Position numbers and translations under genes: made by a program | Shown: positions 12,599 to 49,080 of the stretch, one piece after another | How positions within the stretch are numbered: position 1 is the first letter of the stretch | How the letters are laid out: every line of letters begins with the position of its first letter | The notes under the pieces: model-generated | The model's database searches: none | What the model was told of the DNA's origin: nothing | The model's input: only the letters and a program-made list of their open reading frames with translations | DNA from: Chthoniobacteraceae bacterium | GTDB lineage: Bacteria > Verrucomicrobiota > Verrucomicrobiia > Chthoniobacterales > Chthoniobacteraceae | Assembly: GCA_947471505.1 (NCBI GenBank) | Contig: CANIWM010000003.1 | Location: 62,001-126,000 of the forward strand | Direction: 5' to 3' | DNA: 64,000 nucleotides

Positions 12599-12699
12599 CG
12601 CACGTCAAACTGCCAGTGAAGCCGCGTGAGGGCGACATCCGTGATGACACCGGGGCAAGCCCAAATGCCTTCAGAAAAGTTTAGCCGCCGTTCGTTGCA

Positions 12700-13155
12700 T
12701 CAGGATAAAGCGTCCGGCAGGACATGGTGGAGAATAACGCAGACTAAAGCTACGGCGAGCGCGAGTATGAAGGCATGCCAGACAAGCGTGAGAGTCCCGA
12801 CGCCGCAAGCAACGTAAGCATACCGATGATCCTCGCGACGAAGGTATGAAACTGCCCCGCCGATAATCGCGACCGCGGCGAGCGCCAAGGAAAGAGTGTA
12901 AGGTAGCTCCTGAGGAGAGAAACGCTGCCGTGGAGTTTCGGTTGGTGGTGGAGTCTTCTTGAGTTTGGCAGTAATGTGCTGCTTGAGGCTGAGGATCGTC
13001 TCCGCGAGTTGTTGGTTGGCGGGTGGCGGCGGAACAATCGCGTCCCGGATGGCTGGTCCGACGAGGACGGATAACAAGCCGAGAAAAGCGGCGGCGACGG
13101 CAAGGATGCCGAACGTCTTCGGTTTGATTTCGGGTGGGAGTTCCGCTGTTGTCAT
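12700..13155 (-). CDS. Small hypothetical membrane protein
   Basis: 151 residues, family not recognised. Three or four hydrophobic segments are visible: about 14-37 (FGILAVAAAFLGLLSVLVG), 87-105 (LSLALAAVAIIGGAVSYL) and a long final stretch from about 114 to 146. Between the first two is a charged, Pro-rich loop (about 40-82) with a short heptad-like helix (LAETILSLKQHITAKL). It converges on the RNase D gene with a 100-base gap and has no partner upstream, so it stands alone ahead of a repeat-rich region. The hydrophobic periodicity and lack of a competing frame support a real gene; no function is proposed. Confidence 0.6.
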   Translation of the reverse strand: MTTAELPPEIKPKTFGILAVAAAFLGLLSVLVGPAIRDAIVPPPPANQQLAETILSLKQHITAKLKKTPPPTETPRQRFSPQELPYTLSLALAAVAIIGGAVSYLRREDHRYAYVACGVGTLTLVWHAFILALAVALVCVILHHVLPDALS

Positions 13156-13344
13156 TGTTGGGTGCGCGTGAAGGTGGCTAACTTCCCTTTATACGATAAG
13201 CCATTTCCGCCAGTCGTATAACAGGCGACTCGGAGAATGGCGCGTTCTCTCCGTCGGAGTGGTTGTTTCGGTGGAATGTTGCGCGCATGGGTGTTTTCTA
13301 GCGGGGCTAGGGGCGGTGGCGAGAAGTTTCCTCCGGCAAACGCG

Positions 13345-13364
13345 GGTGTGATTCAAGGTGGAAC
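13345..13364 (+). repeat. Single copy of the GGTGTGATT..GTGGAA end motif
   Basis: The sequence GGTGTGATTCAAGGTGGAAC matches the terminal inverted repeat of the hairpin element at 15379-15663, with two or three differences. It stands here without a partner, so it looks like a solo end or a remnant. Confidence 0.6.
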
Positions 13365-13399
13365 GGAAAGCGGGAGTTCTGGAGGGCCGAAGGTCCGCA

Positions 13400-13585
13400 A
13401 ATGTGATAGCCCAGGCTCAGCGAGGAACGAGCGCAGGCCTGGGTTCCGATAGGAGAACGATTCAGCCCTGAAAGGGCGAGATAATCGCGCAATCACCGTC
13501 CTATCGCGCCCTTTCAGGGCTCATCCCGTCTTCTACGGGAACCCAGGGCTGCGCTCCTACGTCGCTGACCCTGGGCTATTATATT
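13400..13585. repeat. Long imperfect inverted repeat, PVC-type intergenic palindrome
   Basis: The left arm 13400-13446 (GATAGCCCAGGCTCAGCGAGG..., ending CCTGGGTTCC) pairs with the right arm 13538-13585 (GGGAACCCAGGGCTGCGCTCC..., ending CCTGGGCTATT) with roughly 85% complementarity. Nested inside is a second pair, AGCCCTGAAAGGGCGAGATA at 13464-13483 with TATCGCGCCCTTTCAGGGCT at 13502-13521. The whole would fold into a branched hairpin. From memory, similar AGCCCTGAAAGGGC palindromes are scattered through Verrucomicrobiota and Planctomycetota intergenic DNA. It lies between two converging-tail genes and fills most of the 13156-13638 gap; nothing coding is seen there. Confidence 0.8.
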
Positions 13586-13638
13586 GCCGGGCTTTCAGCC
13601 CTTCGCTTGTTCCCCTTTTCACCACATCCGGCAAATGC

Positions 13639-14589
13639 CTACATCGCCAGCGTCACCACTTCCGAGATGGTCTCGCCGCCGGAATTGCGCGTCACGATGC
13701 GGAAGTCTATGGTGGCTTGCTCGAAGTCGGGGTCGGTGATGGTTTGTGTGGGGCGGGTGAGGAGGACTTCGTTTGCCCAGGCGGTTTCGCTGGCGAGCTT
13801 CCATTGGACGACGATTTCCGTCGCGCCTTCTGCTCCGCCAGTGGCGGGGGTGTTGATGCGGGCGGTCGTGACGTCCACCACTTCTACGCTGGTGATCTGT
13901 AGCGCGCCGGGCGCAGGGACGGTCTCTAGCGGGAAGCCCAGCAACGCTTGGGGGAAAAGCCCTTTCAGCCGGTCGCTCTGGCCGAACAGCTCATAACCTA
14001 GCTTCAGCCGGAGTTTGCCGAGCGCCACCTTCAGCGCGGCAGTGCCTTGGCGGCGGGTCTCGGCGGCGCTCGTTTTTTGACCTTTGGCGGTGATGGTATC
14101 GCCGTAAATTGTCTGCCAATTCGTAAGGAGGGTCGCCGCAAGTGCCACCGCCGTCGCGTCTAACTCCGCCGCGCGGGCCTGCATGGCCGTTTTGAGAGCG
14201 GAGAGGTGCGTCTCCAACTGCGAATCGTCCGCCGTGCTGAAAACCTCGCGTCCATTCGGGAAAATCTCCAGCAACTCCACGCCATCCTGCCCAAAAGCGA
14301 TCAGCGGAGCGCCGTACACTTTGCTAATTAAGTTAGGCAGAGCCGCGCGAAACTGGTTCTTCGCAGCGACCCGCGCTTTGCGCAAGCCGAGCTTCACCGT
14401 CTCGCTGCCGATATTCGAATCGAGCAAGGCGATGGCGTTGCTCACCGCAGTCAGCTCCAAGGCGACATCTGCGGAGACAGGGTCCGCGAGGACGAGGCCG
14501 ACATGTTCCTCGGTGAAGGCGGTGAGGTCTGAGACGGAGATTTTTTTGTCTTCGTAAGGGTTTTCTCCTACTTTGTAGAGATCGATCAT
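13639..14589 (-). CDS. Hypothetical protein, helical N-domain plus fibronectin-like C-domain
   Basis: 316 residues, not recognised. No signal peptide or membrane segment is visible. Residues 1-215 are mostly amphipathic helix rich in Ala, Leu and Thr (for example LDATAVALAATLLTNWQTI). The last ~90 residues read as a fibronectin type III-like beta domain (SVEVVDVTTARINTP, TEIVVQWKL, IDFRIVTRNSGGETIS). It stands alone between two repeat regions. The long continuous frame and domain-like composition change near residue 220 support a real gene. A surface or assembly role is possible, but nothing in the sequence or context fixes a function. Confidence 0.65.
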   Translation of the reverse strand: MIDLYKVGENPYEDKKISVSDLTAFTEEHVGLVLADPVSADVALELTAVSNAIALLDSNIGSETVKLGLRKARVAAKNQFRAALPNLISKVYGAPLIAFGQDGVELLEIFPNGREVFSTADDSQLETHLSALKTAMQARAAELDATAVALAATLLTNWQTIYGDTITAKGQKTSAAETRRQGTAALKVALGKLRLKLGYELFGQSDRLKGLFPQALLGFPLETVPAPGALQITSVEVVDVTTARINTPATGGAEGATEIVVQWKLASETAWANEVLLTRPTQTITDPDFEQATIDFRIVTRNSGGETISEVVTLAM

Positions 14590-14774
14590 ATTTGGTTTTG
14601 TTTAAGGGTCAAAAGCGCCGGATGATAACAAAAGTGGCCAGCCGCTCGGCGCGGAAATAACAGATGGCAGGTGAAAGAAAGTCATAAACGCCGCTGGGCT
14701 TCAAGAACTTTTTACAGAAAATTGCACAGCTAATGCAAATCGGGTGAGAGCCAAAAAGCAGGACCAAGCGAGCG

Positions 14775-15195
14775 GTTCCTCTATAATGAGTGGAAAAATT
14801 GGAAACCGGCAAAACGGCGCTGTTTTATCGATAGACAAAATGGGCCGCCACTCAAACAAGGCTGATTTGCTCGTAGGCAAAAAAGAGGATGAGCAAAACG
14901 GCGCTGTTTCAGTCATGGGCAAAATATGCCCCCTACTCAAACAGCGCTGTTTCAGTCATGGGCAAAAATGCCCACGTATCAAACTGCGCTGTTTTGGTCA
15001 TGGGTAAAAATACCCACGTATAAAACTGCGCTATTTTGGCTATAGGCAAAAACGCCCACGTATAAAACAGCGCTGTTTTGGTCGTAGGCAAAAAAACCCA
15101 TGTCTAAAAATGCGCAATTCCGTGCGTTTGCGGAAAATGCAGTCAGCAAAACTGGGCATTTTTAGCCATCCCCTCAAATGTGGGGGCGATGGGAA
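14775..15195. repeat. Array 1: about nine 42-bp units with dyads every 21 bp
   Basis: Units align on GCGCT at 14817, 14859, 14901, 14944, 14986, 15028, 15070, 15112 and 15154, a spacing of 42 (once 43). Each good unit holds two dyads: type A, AAAACAGCGCTGTTTT (perfect at 15064-15079), and type B, TGGGCAAAAATGCCCA (14959-14974). Dyad centres fall 21 bp apart: 14945.5, 14966.5, 14987.5, 15008.5 and 15029.5. The type B stem changes on both sides together (GGGC/GCCC to GGGT/ACCC at 15001-15016), which conserves pairing. The edges are degenerate. There are no spacers, so this is not a CRISPR array. Function unknown. Confidence 0.85.
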
Positions 15196-15241
15196 GTGGA
15201 AACTGTGCGATAGACCGTTGCGCACGGACGGGATCGGCCCC

Positions 15242-15348
15242 AAGGAGGGGGAACGTCCCGTTCCCCTGAACCACGAAGTGGTTCCCGAGTTGCTCGCAGC
15301 GTAAGAGCGGCGCTCGCGCCGCAGGGGAACGGGACGTTCCCCCTCCTT
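15242..15348. repeat. 27-bp perfect inverted repeat
   Basis: The sequence beginning AAGGAGGGGGAACGTCCCGT at 15242-15268 is exactly reverse-complementary to 15322-15348, with a 53-base loop that itself contains short palindromes (CCACGAAGTGG; GCGGCGCTCGCGCCGC). It sits between array 1 and the hairpin element, and no coding sequence is involved. Confidence 0.85.
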
Positions 15349-15378
15349 GAGGGCTTTCGCCCGATGGGTGCCGATGCC

Positions 15379-15663
15379 GGGTGTGATTAAAAGTGGAACA
15401 GAGCGAAGTCGCGATAGCGACAAGCGGCGACAAGCCAACACTGCGAGTGTAACGAGCCAAGGAGCGGCGGCATTCCTGCCGCCGTCTCCAAACGCGCGAA
15501 GCGCCTGATCGGTTTCGCGCGGCTCTGGGAAACTGCACGGTGCTCGAAATTGGGCGCTTCGCGCTTTTAGGACGGCGGCAGGAATGCCGCCGCTCCTTGG
15601 CTCGCTTCGCTCGCATGAGATCGCTATCGCGACCTTCACGCTGTTCCACTTTTAATCACACCC
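15379..15663. mobile_element. MITE-like hairpin element with 23-bp terminal inverted repeats
   Basis: The ends GGGTGTGATTAAAAGTGGAA... (15379-15401) and its exact reverse complement (15641-15663) are 23-bp perfect inverted repeats. Inside them are GTCGCGATAGCGA (15408-15420) paired with 15621-15633, and a perfect 34-bp pair at 15453-15486 and 15571-15604 (core CCAAGGAGCGGCGGCATTCC). The 285-bp element could fold end to end as one hairpin. It has no transposase gene, and no target-site duplication was identified. Related end motifs lie at 13345-13364 and 15678-15697. A non-autonomous palindromic element is the simplest reading. Confidence 0.7.
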
Positions 15664-15677
15664 GCCGATGCCATTGC

Positions 15678-15697
15678 ATTCCACTTTGAATCACACC
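15678..15697 (-). repeat. Extra copy of the hairpin-element end motif
   Basis: ATTCCACTTTGAATCACACC repeats the right end of the 15379-15663 element 15 bases beyond it, in the same orientation, with small differences. It suggests a nested or partly deleted second copy. Confidence 0.6.
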
Positions 15698-15709
15698 AAC
15701 TTCCATAAA

Positions 15710-15842
15710 TAAAGAGACGGGAGAAAGTAGCGGGGCCGTCTCGGCCCCGTCGCGACACGCAGTGTCGCAGCGCGGCAAGCGCCTTCGGCGCTCGGGGGCG
15801 GGACGCCCCCGCTACGATTCGTTCCTCTCCGCAGTCTCTTTA
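15710..15842. repeat. Composite GC-rich palindrome
   Basis: Outer arms TAAAGAGAC (15710-15718) and GTCTCTTTA (15834-15842) enclose GTAGCGGGG (15727-15735) paired with CCCCGCTAC ending at 15815. Inside are several hairpins: GGGGCCGTCTCGGCCCC, GCGACACGCAGTGTCGC and GCGCCTTCGGCGC. It is intergenic and has no gene. The stretch 15843-15917 after it holds nothing recognised. Confidence 0.75.
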
Positions 15843-15917
15843 GTTCAGGAAGATGGTATCACACACTAGGCAGGGTTTGCGGACCCACAAACTCCGACCG
15901 AGTTTTTCAACAGCCTG

Positions 15918-16385
15918 CTAGAGCGCCAGTTCGGGCTGCTCGACTCGTGTGATGCTCCATTGGGTCGGGCCGCCGGTGCGCCGCCAGGTGATCTCAAAGG
16001 GCTGGGTGAGGCGGTTTAGCTCGTCTTTCGCGTAGTTGGCGAGGGGGCCGCCGGTGCCGGTGAGCTTTATTTTTTCGCGGATGACCCACTCGGCTCCTCG
16101 GGAATCGAGCCCTTTTTCCTCGCGCACGACGGTGACGAAAAGGAACTGCTGGAAGACTTCTTGCGTGCGGGAAATCACATTTGCTTTGTCGTGCCCCCAT
16201 CGGTCGCGGTAGTCATCCGCCACCAGGCGCTCGAACGCGGCAAAGTCTCGGCCTTCGATGGCTGCGATGAGTCGCGTCTGCGCGCGGCGGACCTGACGTT
16301 CTGGCTGGAGCCACCACCACAGCGCGAGGGCCGCACACACGATTACAACGCCAATCCACACGCCGAATTTCTTAAAAAGTTCCAT
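15918..16385 (-). CDS. Membrane-anchored NTF2-like (SnoaL-like) protein
   Basis: 155 residues from the ATG at 16385; the longer upstream frame (to 16589) runs antisense through the Nudix gene and is rejected. MELFKKFGVWIGVVIVCAALALWWW is a signal anchor. The rest resembles the cone-shaped NTF2-like fold: a helical start (RLIAAIEGRDFAAFERLVADDYRDRWG) followed by a strand-rich half ending FEITWRRTGGPTQWSITRVE. Such domains bind small ligands or act as accessory domains, and no catalytic residues can be named. Its start codon overlaps the start of the divergent Nudix gene (CATG). Confidence 0.7.
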   Translation of the reverse strand: MELFKKFGVWIGVVIVCAALALWWWLQPERQVRRAQTRLIAAIEGRDFAAFERLVADDYRDRWGHDKANVISRTQEVFQQFLFVTVVREEKGLDSRGAEWVIREKIKLTGTGGPLANYAKDELNRLTQPFEITWRRTGGPTQWSITRVEQPELAL

Positions 16386-25459: not shown

Positions 25460-27465
25460 TGACTTTTGCGGCTCCAGTTTGGCTTTGGGCGTTGGCGGCT
25501 TTTCCGTTTCTCATCGCGCTGTATTTGCGGGGAGAAGGTGCGCGGCGTGTGGCGCTGAATCGGCTCATCGCGGCGCGGCTGCAATCTCGGTTGGCGGGTG
25601 GTGTGAGCCTTGGAAGGCGGCGCGTTGTTTTTGTGTTGATGATGCTGGGCGTGGCGCTGGGGATTGTGGCGCTGGCGCGTCCGCAGTGGGGCTTTTCGTG
25701 GGACGAGCGGCGTGACATGGGGCGCGATGTGATCATCGCGGTGGATACCTCGCGCTCGATGCTAGCGGCGGACCTTCAGCCGAGTCGGCTCAAGCGTGCG
25801 AAACTGGCGGCGCAGGATTTACTCACGCACATCAAGGGCGACCGCGTGGGCGTGATTGCGTTCGCGGGTTCGTCGTTTTTGCAGGCTCCGCTGACGGCGG
25901 ATTTTGCGGCGACGATTGATACGCTGGCGGAGCTGGATACGGACATCATCCCGCGCGGCGGGACGAATCTCACGGAGGCGATTACGGCGGCGGACGATGC
26001 CTTTGGCAAAGGCGAGAGCGAGCACCGGGCGCTCATTATTTTCACCGACGGCGAGGAACTCGAAGATGACGCGGTGAAGGCGGCGCGGGAGCACAAGGAC
26101 AAGTTCCGCATTTTCACCGTGGGCCTCGGCTCGGCGGAAGGCGCGCTCATCCCGATGCCGAATGAACGCGGCGGCACGCAGTTTGTCAGAGATGAGAAAG
26201 GCGAATACGTGAAATCCAAACTCGACGAGAAACGGCTACGAGAGGTTGCGGAAGCAGGCGGCGGCTTCTACGTTCACCTCCAGAACGGCCCCGCCGAAAT
26301 GCGGCAAATCGCAACGGAGGGCCTCGGCACCATGAAGGAAACCAGCACGAACGAATCTCATTTTTCAAAGCGCCCGAACGAACGGTATCAGTGGCCGCTC
26401 GCGGCGGCGGTGGCGTGCTGGGTGGCCGCGTTGCTCGTGGGGGAAAGGAAGCGCGTGGCGGCTGTGTTGGCGCTTTTTTTAGCGCAGTCGGCGCAGGCGA
26501 AAGATGAAGGGCAGAGTCTCTTTGCGAAGTCGGACTACGCAGGCGCGGCGAAGGTTTTCGAGGAGCAGCGGGCGAAGCGAAGCGCGCCGGAGCTAGACTA
26601 CAATCTCGGCGTCAGCGCCTACAAAGCGGGAGACCTCGACAAGGCTGCGGAGGCGCTGAGCAGCGCACTTGGTGGCGGCGAGACGGCGCTGCAAACCAAG
26701 GCGGCATTTGGACTGGCCAACGTGCTGGCGCGTCGCGGCGTGAAGCAGGAGAAAAAGGAGGACAAACTGAGCGACTGGAAAAACGCTATCCAGCACTACG
26801 ACCGCACACTCGCTCTCAATGCCACGCATCCCGACGCTGCTCACAACCGTGACTTGCTGAAGAAGCTCATCGCTGACCTCGAAAAGAAAGACGACGAGCA
26901 GAAGAAGGACGAAGACAAGAAAGACGACAAAAAGGACGAGGAGAAAAAGGATCAGGAAAAGAAGGACGACCAAGAGAAGTCAGGCGACGGTAAGCCGGAT
27001 GAAAAAAAAGACGGTGAGAGGAAAGAGGAGCAAGGCAAGAACGGCGAAAAAAAGTCCGAGCAGGAGAAGCAGGATGGAGAGAAAAAGGATGGTAAGGACG
27101 GTGAGAAGAAAGACGGGGAGTCCGCTGGCGATGAGAAAAAGGACGGCGAGCAAAAGCCCGGTGAAAAGAAGGAGAAATCCGACAAGCCTGGCGAGAAGCC
27201 CGAGAAGGCTGAACCGCAAAAGGACGGCGAGAAAAAGCAGGGAGAACTCAAGGCCGCTAACCCTGGAGAGAAGAACGAAGACAAAGCACAGCAAGACGCC
27301 GAAGCCGCCGAAGAAATGGCGGCAGCTCAGGAGGGGCGAATGACGCAGAAGGATGCAAAGCAGTTGCTCGACTCGATGCGGAATACGGAGCGCCGCGTCC
27401 GTCTTTTAGACCCACGGCAAGAAACTAACATGCAGAACAAGCCGAGACCGGAGAAGAATTGGTAG
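25456..27465 (+). CDS. BatB-like VWA protein fused to BatC-like TPR and a long Lys/Glu-rich tail
   Basis: 669 residues from the ATG at 25456. Like BatA it has two N-terminal helices, then a VWA domain with AVDTSRSM (about 94-101; an Arg in the DxSxS spacing is normal for BatB). After a membrane helix (WPLAAAVACWVAALLVG, about 315-331) come TPR-like repeats (LFAKSDYAGAAKVFEEQ; LDYNLGVSAYKAGDLDKAAEAL), which correspond to BatC. About 140 residues of near-continuous K/E/D/Q/G follow (DNA 26880-27280), then a conserved-looking end (QLLDSMRNTERRVRL). The fusion and charged tail are the odd features. Confidence 0.88.
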   Translation: MMTFAAPVWLWALAAFPFLIALYLRGEGARRVALNRLIAARLQSRLAGGVSLGRRRVVFVLMMLGVALGIVALARPQWGFSWDERRDMGRDVIIAVDTSRSMLAADLQPSRLKRAKLAAQDLLTHIKGDRVGVIAFAGSSFLQAPLTADFAATIDTLAELDTDIIPRGGTNLTEAITAADDAFGKGESEHRALIIFTDGEELEDDAVKAAREHKDKFRIFTVGLGSAEGALIPMPNERGGTQFVRDEKGEYVKSKLDEKRLREVAEAGGGFYVHLQNGPAEMRQIATEGLGTMKETSTNESHFSKRPNERYQWPLAAAVACWVAALLVGERKRVAAVLALFLAQSAQAKDEGQSLFAKSDYAGAAKVFEEQRAKRSAPELDYNLGVSAYKAGDLDKAAEALSSALGGGETALQTKAAFGLANVLARRGVKQEKKEDKLSDWKNAIQHYDRTLALNATHPDAAHNRDLLKKLIADLEKKDDEQKKDEDKKDDKKDEEKKDQEKKDDQEKSGDGKPDEKKDGERKEEQGKNGEKKSEQEKQDGEKKDGKDGEKKDGESAGDEKKDGEQKPGEKKEKSDKPGEKPEKAEPQKDGEKKQGELKAANPGEKNEDKAQQDAEAAEEMAAAQEGRMTQKDAKQLLDSMRNTERRVRLLDPRQETNMQNKPRPEKNW

Positions 27466-48005: not shown

Positions 48006-48536
48006 ATGGCCTACATCGTCCCACGTCCCGAGCTGACATTCAAAGAAAAGGCATACCTGCCGAGCATCCTGAACGGACTCAAGATCACCTTCGGTCATTT
48101 CAAAAAAATGATGAGGGGCGAGACGAAAGTCACCATGCAGTATCCCGAAGAGCGCTGGGATGCCGAGTTGCCCGAGCACTATCGCGGCGCTCCCACATTG
48201 GTCAAAGACGAGCACGACCGCGAACGCTGTGTCGCCTGTCAGCTCTGCGAATTCATCTGCCCGCCCCGCGCCATCACCATCAAGCCGATGGAAATCCCGG
48301 CGGACGACAAATTCGCCAAAGTCGAGAAGCGCCCCGCCGAGTTCGAGATCGACATGATCCGCTGCATCTACTGCGGCATGTGCGAAGAAGTCTGCCCCGA
48401 GCAAGCCATCTTCCTACGAAAAGACTACGCCATCACCGGCATCACCCGCGCCGAAATGGTTCACGACAAAGCAAAACTCTACGAGCTAGGCGGAGTGTTC
48501 AAAGGGCTCGTTCACAAATGGAACCCGGAGAAATGA
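48006..48536 (+). CDS. nuoI: NADH-quinone oxidoreductase subunit I
   Basis: 176 residues with two 4Fe-4S ferredoxin motifs, CVACQLCEFICP and CIYCGMCEEVCPEQAI (about 77-88 and 119-132), which carry clusters N6a and N6b near the quinone. The N-terminus (FGHFKKMMRGE) is the usual membrane-surface helix. The operon then pauses for 544 bases of repeat DNA before nuoJ. Confidence 0.96.
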   Translation: MAYIVPRPELTFKEKAYLPSILNGLKITFGHFKKMMRGETKVTMQYPEERWDAELPEHYRGAPTLVKDEHDRERCVACQLCEFICPPRAITIKPMEIPADDKFAKVEKRPAEFEIDMIRCIYCGMCEEVCPEQAIFLRKDYAITGITRAEMVHDKAKLYELGGVFKGLVHKWNPEK

Positions 48537-48637
48537 GAGGCATTCATCTTTATTCCGGCCCCATTTCCGAACCTCAAGTAGGCAGCTCGCTATGCAAAAA
48601 TTCGAGCGCACAATGGGCTTGTTCCACATCGCATTAC

Positions 48638-48950
48638 AAAAAGACGGAATCGGACTGTCGTGACCCCGGATATCTCTATAAAAAGTCGTTTCCCCGTCGT
48701 CATGGAGGCATCTCTCTCCATAGATTTTCGGTCAAAAAACGTTTTCCGAGCATCTATCTGTATAAATTTCAACAGTTAAAACGTTCCGACAGCAACCATC
48801 TGAATAGATTTCTACACAAAAAGCGTTCCGGCAACGCCTTTCTCCATAAAAAACCGGCATCAAAACGTTTTGGAACCGTTTTTCTCCATAGAAAACCGGC
48901 TCCTCCGCGTTCCGAAACCGCCTATCGATGTAGTTTATCTCTGACGGATT
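48638..48950. repeat. Array 2: 42-bp units inside the nuo operon
   Basis: Units align on ACGTT or GCGTT at 48686, 48739, 48781, 48823, 48865 and 48907. The last five are spaced exactly 42 bp; one 53-bp step (48686 to 48739) suggests an 11-base insertion, and a weak unit precedes at 48644. As in array 1, a second dyad (TTTTCT..AGAAAA, centre 48887.5) lies 21 bp from the first (AAAACGTTTT, centre 48866.5). The unit sequence differs from array 1. Frames on both strands stay open and show a 14-residue periodicity (VFYGEK..., FLHKKR...), but this follows from 42 being divisible by three. The gap 48537-49080 has no other content. Confidence 0.8.
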
Positions 48951-49080
48951 GCTGCGCGGCAACTTTTCAACATACCGACCGGACGCCGGAGAACCCCCGC
49001 ACCTTTTCGCACTCTTTTAGCCTCTTTACCCGGCGTTCTGGCAATGTTCCACAAGACTCTGCTATGCACCCGCTTCGCAA

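Follow-up and report, generated by a model that had tools for sequence, protein, structure and literature searches.

Bacterial tandem arrays are normally grouped by their sequence. MIRUs and other VNTR minisatellites form such arrays between genes and within operons, turn over fast, and have periods that vary widely between loci. The closest described structure to the array analysed here is the F-plasmid centromere parS_F (sopC), where twelve 43-bp tandem repeats with 16-bp inverted repeats are specifically bound by ParB (PMC6238139). Besides, in-frame palindromic elements are found inside protein genes in Rickettsia (Rickettsia palindromic elements, RPE; PMC10969869), and type III toxin-antitoxin loci (ToxIN) carry a tandem repeat array directly before one protein gene (PMC5086642).

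Within the analysed stretch of DNA (the window; 64,000 nucleotides), array 1 contains two 16-bp dyads per 42-bp unit. Unit and dyad size are thus nearly equal to those of parS_F and, as in parS-type centromeres, each tandem repeat holds an inverted-repeat site, putatively bound by protein. While each replicon has just one parS_F array, of a single sequence and with ParA/ParB-type partners, the chromosomes analysed here carry many arrays that differ in sequence from one another and lie next to unrelated gene families. No parA/parB-type partition genes lie beside array 1, whose neighbours encode a helical/FN3 protein, a 223-aa protein without Pfam match and a NUDIX protein, and no single ParB-recognised sequence recurs across loci, the array sequences being unrelated. 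The arrays found in frame within alaS resemble RPEs in this position, yet RPEs are families of related sequences of ~150 bp, whereas the present arrays are tandem and have their geometry, not their sequence, in common. Like REP, RPE and MITE elements, they are palindromic insertions, intergenic or in frame, but genome-wide sequence sharing was limited to three homologous array pairs. Intergenic palindromes and the Y1 transposase genes of this genome, one of which lies ~1.3 kb from an array, recall REP/BIME elements and their RAYTs; here, however, no palindrome family is common to different loci and the tandem register is a strict 21 bp.

The original prediction that array 1 is composed of 42-bp units with two dyads 21 bp apart was confirmed by TRF, autocorrelation and the dyad centres (Table 1). 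TRF returned a 42-bp array at 14895-15109 (5.1 copies, score 244) along with an 84-bp row at 14809-14968, and the autocorrelation at lag 42 spanned ~14794-15189 with a peak identity of 0.84. Unbroken dyads are centred at 14945.5 (7-bp arms, no loop), at 14966.5 and 15008.5 (6-bp arms, loop of 4) and at 15071.5 (8-bp arms, no loop). All four fall on one 21-bp grid, the intermediate points of which (14987.5, 15029.5, 15050.5 and 15092.5) hold imperfect dyads, and a 1-bp indel puts the two upstream units out of register (dyad at 14924.0). Stops in all six frames leave no ORF running through the array, and no terminator-like site was detected at 14500-15300, i.e. none between array 1 and its gene. 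When compared with 19 genomes, the array 1 sequence matched only itself, except for a 31-base match within a gene of G014.

Table 1. Coordinates of array 1, array 2 and associated features in the window.
Feature	Position	Strand	Description
Array-proximal gene	13639..14589	-	316-aa acidic protein; start codon ~200 bp from array 1
Array 1	14775..15195	.	~nine 42-bp units, both ends degenerate; two dyads per unit, alternating along a 21-bp grid
In-register block of array 1	14938..15105	.	four successive 42-bp units, starting at 14938, 14980, 15022 and 15064
Dyad type A	15064..15079	.	AAAACAGCGCTGTTTT, centre 15071.5; weaker copies at 14945.5, 14987.5, 15029.5
Dyad type B	14959..14974	.	TGGGCAAAAATGCCCA, centre 14966.5; broken copies at 15050.5, 15092.5
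Dyad type B, compensated copy	centre 15008.5		TGGGTAAAAATACCCA
Array 2	48654..48949 (about)	.	diverged 42-bp array, sequence unrelated to array 1; lag 42, identity 0.67
Insertion holding array 2	48535..49078	.	544 bp, lying between nuoI stop and nuoJ start; absent in G006
Stretch absent from G006	12612..15927	.	gene, array 1 and long inverted repeats; ~3.3 kb

As a control for array 1, its 42 columns were permuted, which retains both repeat and composition. Against this background, dyad strength was significant (p=0.010) and the single strand of 14893-15113 folded with z=-6.2 on the gene-sense strand and z=-7.5 on the opposite strand, the core folding energy being matched in 0 of 80 permuted trials on either strand. 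The idea that the array is the source of a structured RNA finds no support in this strand comparison, where folding is without sense-strand advantage. The original prediction had also read the paired change from GGGC/GCCC to GGGT/ACCC as covariation. This double change does exist, but it is a single event confined to one unit: two of the five units retain stem 2 unbroken, and the remaining stem changes are one-sided, breaking the stems of other units.

A second 42-bp array of unrelated sequence had been proposed for the window and is real according to both TRF and autocorrelation. Its insertion separates the nuoI stop from the nuoJ start, a placement resembling that of MIRU/VNTR loci, from which the arrays differ in that their period clusters at multiples of 21. 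In the closest relative, G006, nuoI and nuoJ adjoin, and the stretch with array 1 is missing between flanks that are 94% identical. Since neither window array is present at the corresponding place in G006, turnover is fast. The test attached to the original prediction fails at the array 1 locus, where this nearest relative is array-free, but the same period recurs with new sequence at other loci. Next to array 1, there are long inverted repeats at 15212-15345 and 15390-15660, the former MITE-like and with ~92% identical copies at L068, L034 and L135.

We sampled ~2 Mb from six species of the genus (freshwater Chthoniobacteraceae/Spartobacteria), plus other genera, and defined periodic intergenic regions by z>=6.5 at lags 12-70. 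The best lag was exactly 21, 42 or 63 in 23 of these 30 regions, 22 in two and 41 in one. The two-turn spacing without a common sequence, which had been taken as a hint at a phased protein scaffold, holds as geometry across the genus. Within the sampled DNA, nearly all arrays are sequence singletons, the only homologous pairs being L104/L159, L018/L025 and L027/L038. In G007, arrays with other periods lie mostly inside coding genes. Outside the genus, ~420 kb of sampled sequence contained one clear array (in G014). In G006, no 21/42 array was found in 393 kb at the high threshold, and a diverged array (L087) emerged at a lower one. Array 1 may be one member of a class of non-coding tandem arrays that is found across the genus and keeps to a 21-bp step, in which 42 bp would represent a diverged pair of 21-bp monomers; together with the reading as phased protein sites laid out below, we hold this view tentatively, at a little less than an even chance.

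Several simple origins were considered for the class and set aside. A single transposing element is at odds with most arrays being singletons, and a plasmid or viral origin was rejected as plasmids and viral contigs gave no match. K-mer enrichment around the arrays was no better than chance and did not reveal a shared boundary or seed motif, and Rfam returned no family at gathering score. No account of 21-bp-phased arrays in this group was found in the literature searched, which lay mostly outside subscription journals. The genomes are draft assemblies, in which some units may have been lost by collapse and arrays may coincide with contig ends. Contigs do start or end at or near arrays or their neighbour genes in G001:C7, G001:C38 and L038 (G000:C4:1), and draft assemblies therefore probably under-count arrays. 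One 22-bp tandem array (L135:2897-3113), slightly off the 21-bp rule, lies close to an L104-type gene copy that is truncated. For the array at L139:1178-1464 (G007), the orthologous gene in G001 (L140) has a flank that is 97.7% identical and then other sequence exactly at the array edge; we dropped L140 as an empty site because the contig runs there into what we take to be the start of an IS transposase.

Some arrays reside in a protein-coding gene. The alaS of G000 contains a 42-bp array in frame; at the same site, which tolerates insertions, the alaS of G003 has a 21-bp array of unrelated sequence, so array formation seems independent of, and not to need, a particular starting sequence. Besides the array, the alaS genes of G000 (L022:14549-18199), G008 and G004 have a second in-frame insert, which is Y1/RAYT-transposase-like and visible in the alaS alignment of the three species. 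A PF01797 match above cut-off (24 bits) lies at G000:C1:56244-56540 within an open frame of 1244 aa.

The protein encoded next to array 1 at 13639-14589 has no match in Pfam or NCBIfam, and its predicted structure, of moderate confidence (pLDDT 70), combines a helical N-terminal with an FN3-like C-terminal domain. Genes were called with a simple codon-usage finder, and homologues were picked by protein similarity alone, setting aside truncated and contig-end copies and requiring enough upstream sequence. All seven intact homologues (L015, L017, L018, L019, L133, L139 and L087) are preceded by a 21n array, compared with 22 of 1433 background genes (1.5%), which corresponds to a chance of ~2e-13 if the cases are independent. 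The genes with this link encode acidic helical proteins of unknown function, often with an FN3 part as well. Even beside homologous genes, array sequences differ. The L062 and L180 proteins share 41% identity although they come from two families of the order, one of them represented by G014, and the 21-bp arrays upstream of their genes are unrelated in sequence. This excludes one shared binder with a fixed motif. Of 286 genomes sampled from the class, 27 have genes of one such family, the L150 type, and often more than one copy. As for the remaining arrays, about half of the total neighbour other genes (the nuo operon, cysS, a surface-protein gene) or are located in frame within alaS. Although arrays tend to lie toward gene 5' ends (31 of 45 flanks), this is not clearly above all long intergenic regions (352 of 598), and we do not regard it as a special feature. 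Searches with PADLOC, Pfam and NCBIfam assigned the neighbour proteins to no known family or defence system. With a pI <6.4 in 12 of 14 cases, most of them are acidic, and no DNA-binding fold was found; a neighbour protein is thus not an obvious candidate for binding its own array and was rejected in this role.

Across the class, diverged 21-bp arrays keep their register without indels while only some of their columns are conserved. L087 of G006, for instance, comprises 14 units in phase at ~0.49 unit identity and without any indel. In the six best-sampled 21-bp arrays (L087, L150, L033, L180, L062 and L139), column conservation was far more uneven than expected from uniform decay (p<0.005 each; null of star-like decay at equal rate), while the five units of array 1 alone did not reach significance (p=0.66). 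The conserved columns correspond to half-sites or dyad arms around variable middles, as in TCAACG...CCGTTG of L150 and CCGAA.GTTC of L139. In the column-permutation test, 13 of 28 arrays had significant dyads (p<0.05), as opposed to one of 11 control arrays with other periods; a 10.5-bp dyad spacing in 21-bp arrays was not counted, as it follows from one dyad plus the period. Array cores for the strand and column tests were delimited by eye. Judged from these patterns, the combination of column pattern and register suggests arrays of protein-binding sites.

The explanation we favour, if with some reserve and at slightly below an even chance, is that each array consists of phased DNA sites for a dimeric protein, with one motif per locus, and arrives together with its neighbour gene. 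With half-sites or dyads repeated every two helical turns, copies of such a protein would be aligned along the same side of the DNA, 5' of the adjacent gene, and would control that gene, which for array 1 would be the helical/FN3 gene on the minus strand. Array 1 and its gene would then travel as one, both being part of the stretch that the nearest relative lacks. On the other hand, half of the arrays are without a significant dyad, about half lie by other genes, and the columns of array 1 are not significantly uneven.

The main competing possibility, to us a rather unlikely one, is that the arrays are fast-turnover minisatellites without regulatory role, arising through some copying or recombination process that duplicates any sequence in two-turn (21-bp) steps, while template switching between arms makes the palindromes. 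Arrays are indeed gained and lost between close species, most are singletons with few segmental duplicates (the three homologous pairs show that arrays can be copied), the in-frame arrays of G000 and G003 share an alaS site without being related, and adjacent units are most alike in some arrays, including array 1. Yet strict register despite ~50% divergence is unexpected for neutral repeats, unit similarity is flat and column conservation uneven in several 21-bp arrays, and there is the link to particular gene families. Alternatively, though unlikely, the arrays might be transcribed, either as chains of RNA hairpins in 5' leaders or as small RNAs, and in this form govern how stable the message of the following gene is or how it is translated, or else bind the protein it encodes. 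In some cases only 13-66 bp separate the array from the start codon, leaving scant room for a promoter, and the arrays in nuo and alaS are within transcribed regions by position. Among 22 arrays, sense strands folded better than column-permuted controls (mean z -2.1), and G-U outnumbered A-C mismatches in sense direction (31 vs 19, not significant). However, antisense strands folded at least as well (mean z -2.75), which argues for sites at the DNA level over an mRNA leader, arm changes are mostly uncompensated, several arrays (L104, L087 and L062) lack any hairpin signal, and the Rfam search gave no family at gathering score.

Two further accounts appear very improbable. The order of parts and a unit sequence that varies by locus would agree with a module akin to type III toxin-antitoxin systems, whose upstream repeat RNA is processed by the protein of the downstream gene. 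In contrast to ToxIN, however, we found no ToxN-like protein, no terminator from array 1 to its gene and no strand-specific RNA signal. An endoribonuclease of the ToxN/AbiQ/CptN/TenpN type was not found downstream of arrays by PADLOC, Pfam or NCBIfam, the predicted helical plus FN3 architecture does not resemble a known RNase fold, and units measure 21 or 42 bp with both strands equal. It is just as improbable that the arrays encode repetitive peptides, with 21 and 42 bp corresponding to 7 and 14 codons. Both periods are divisible by three, and L109 as well as the alaS arrays belong in frame to an ORF, but stop codons occur in all six frames of array 1 and in several other arrays, and conservation tracks dyad arms and half-sites rather than codon positions.

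Returning to phased sites for a dimeric protein, the arrays with steps of 21 or 42 bp, equal to two or four helical turns, which have almost no sequence in common and lie immediately upstream of gene families of unknown function, suggest an undescribed kind of phased DNA site. A more far-reaching proposal, which we consider on the doubtful side, is a new class of modular loci, in which helical/FN3 gene families are each coupled to a cis array whose geometry (two-turn spacing, dyads) is kept while its sequence is free, the 21-bp phasing being built or kept by an unnamed process across a bacterial order. A class defined by step length only would escape repeat searches based on alignment. Phasing kept by selection would imply that this freshwater group has an undescribed DNA-organising or regulatory protein and would offer a handle on gene families without known function; phasing of mutational origin would instead imply a copying process that advances by two turns. 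Outside the 21-bp class, the window contains one more periodic stretch, at 26826-27120, where 15-bp repeats (GACGAGGAGAAGAAG) probably represent a low-complexity coding repeat.
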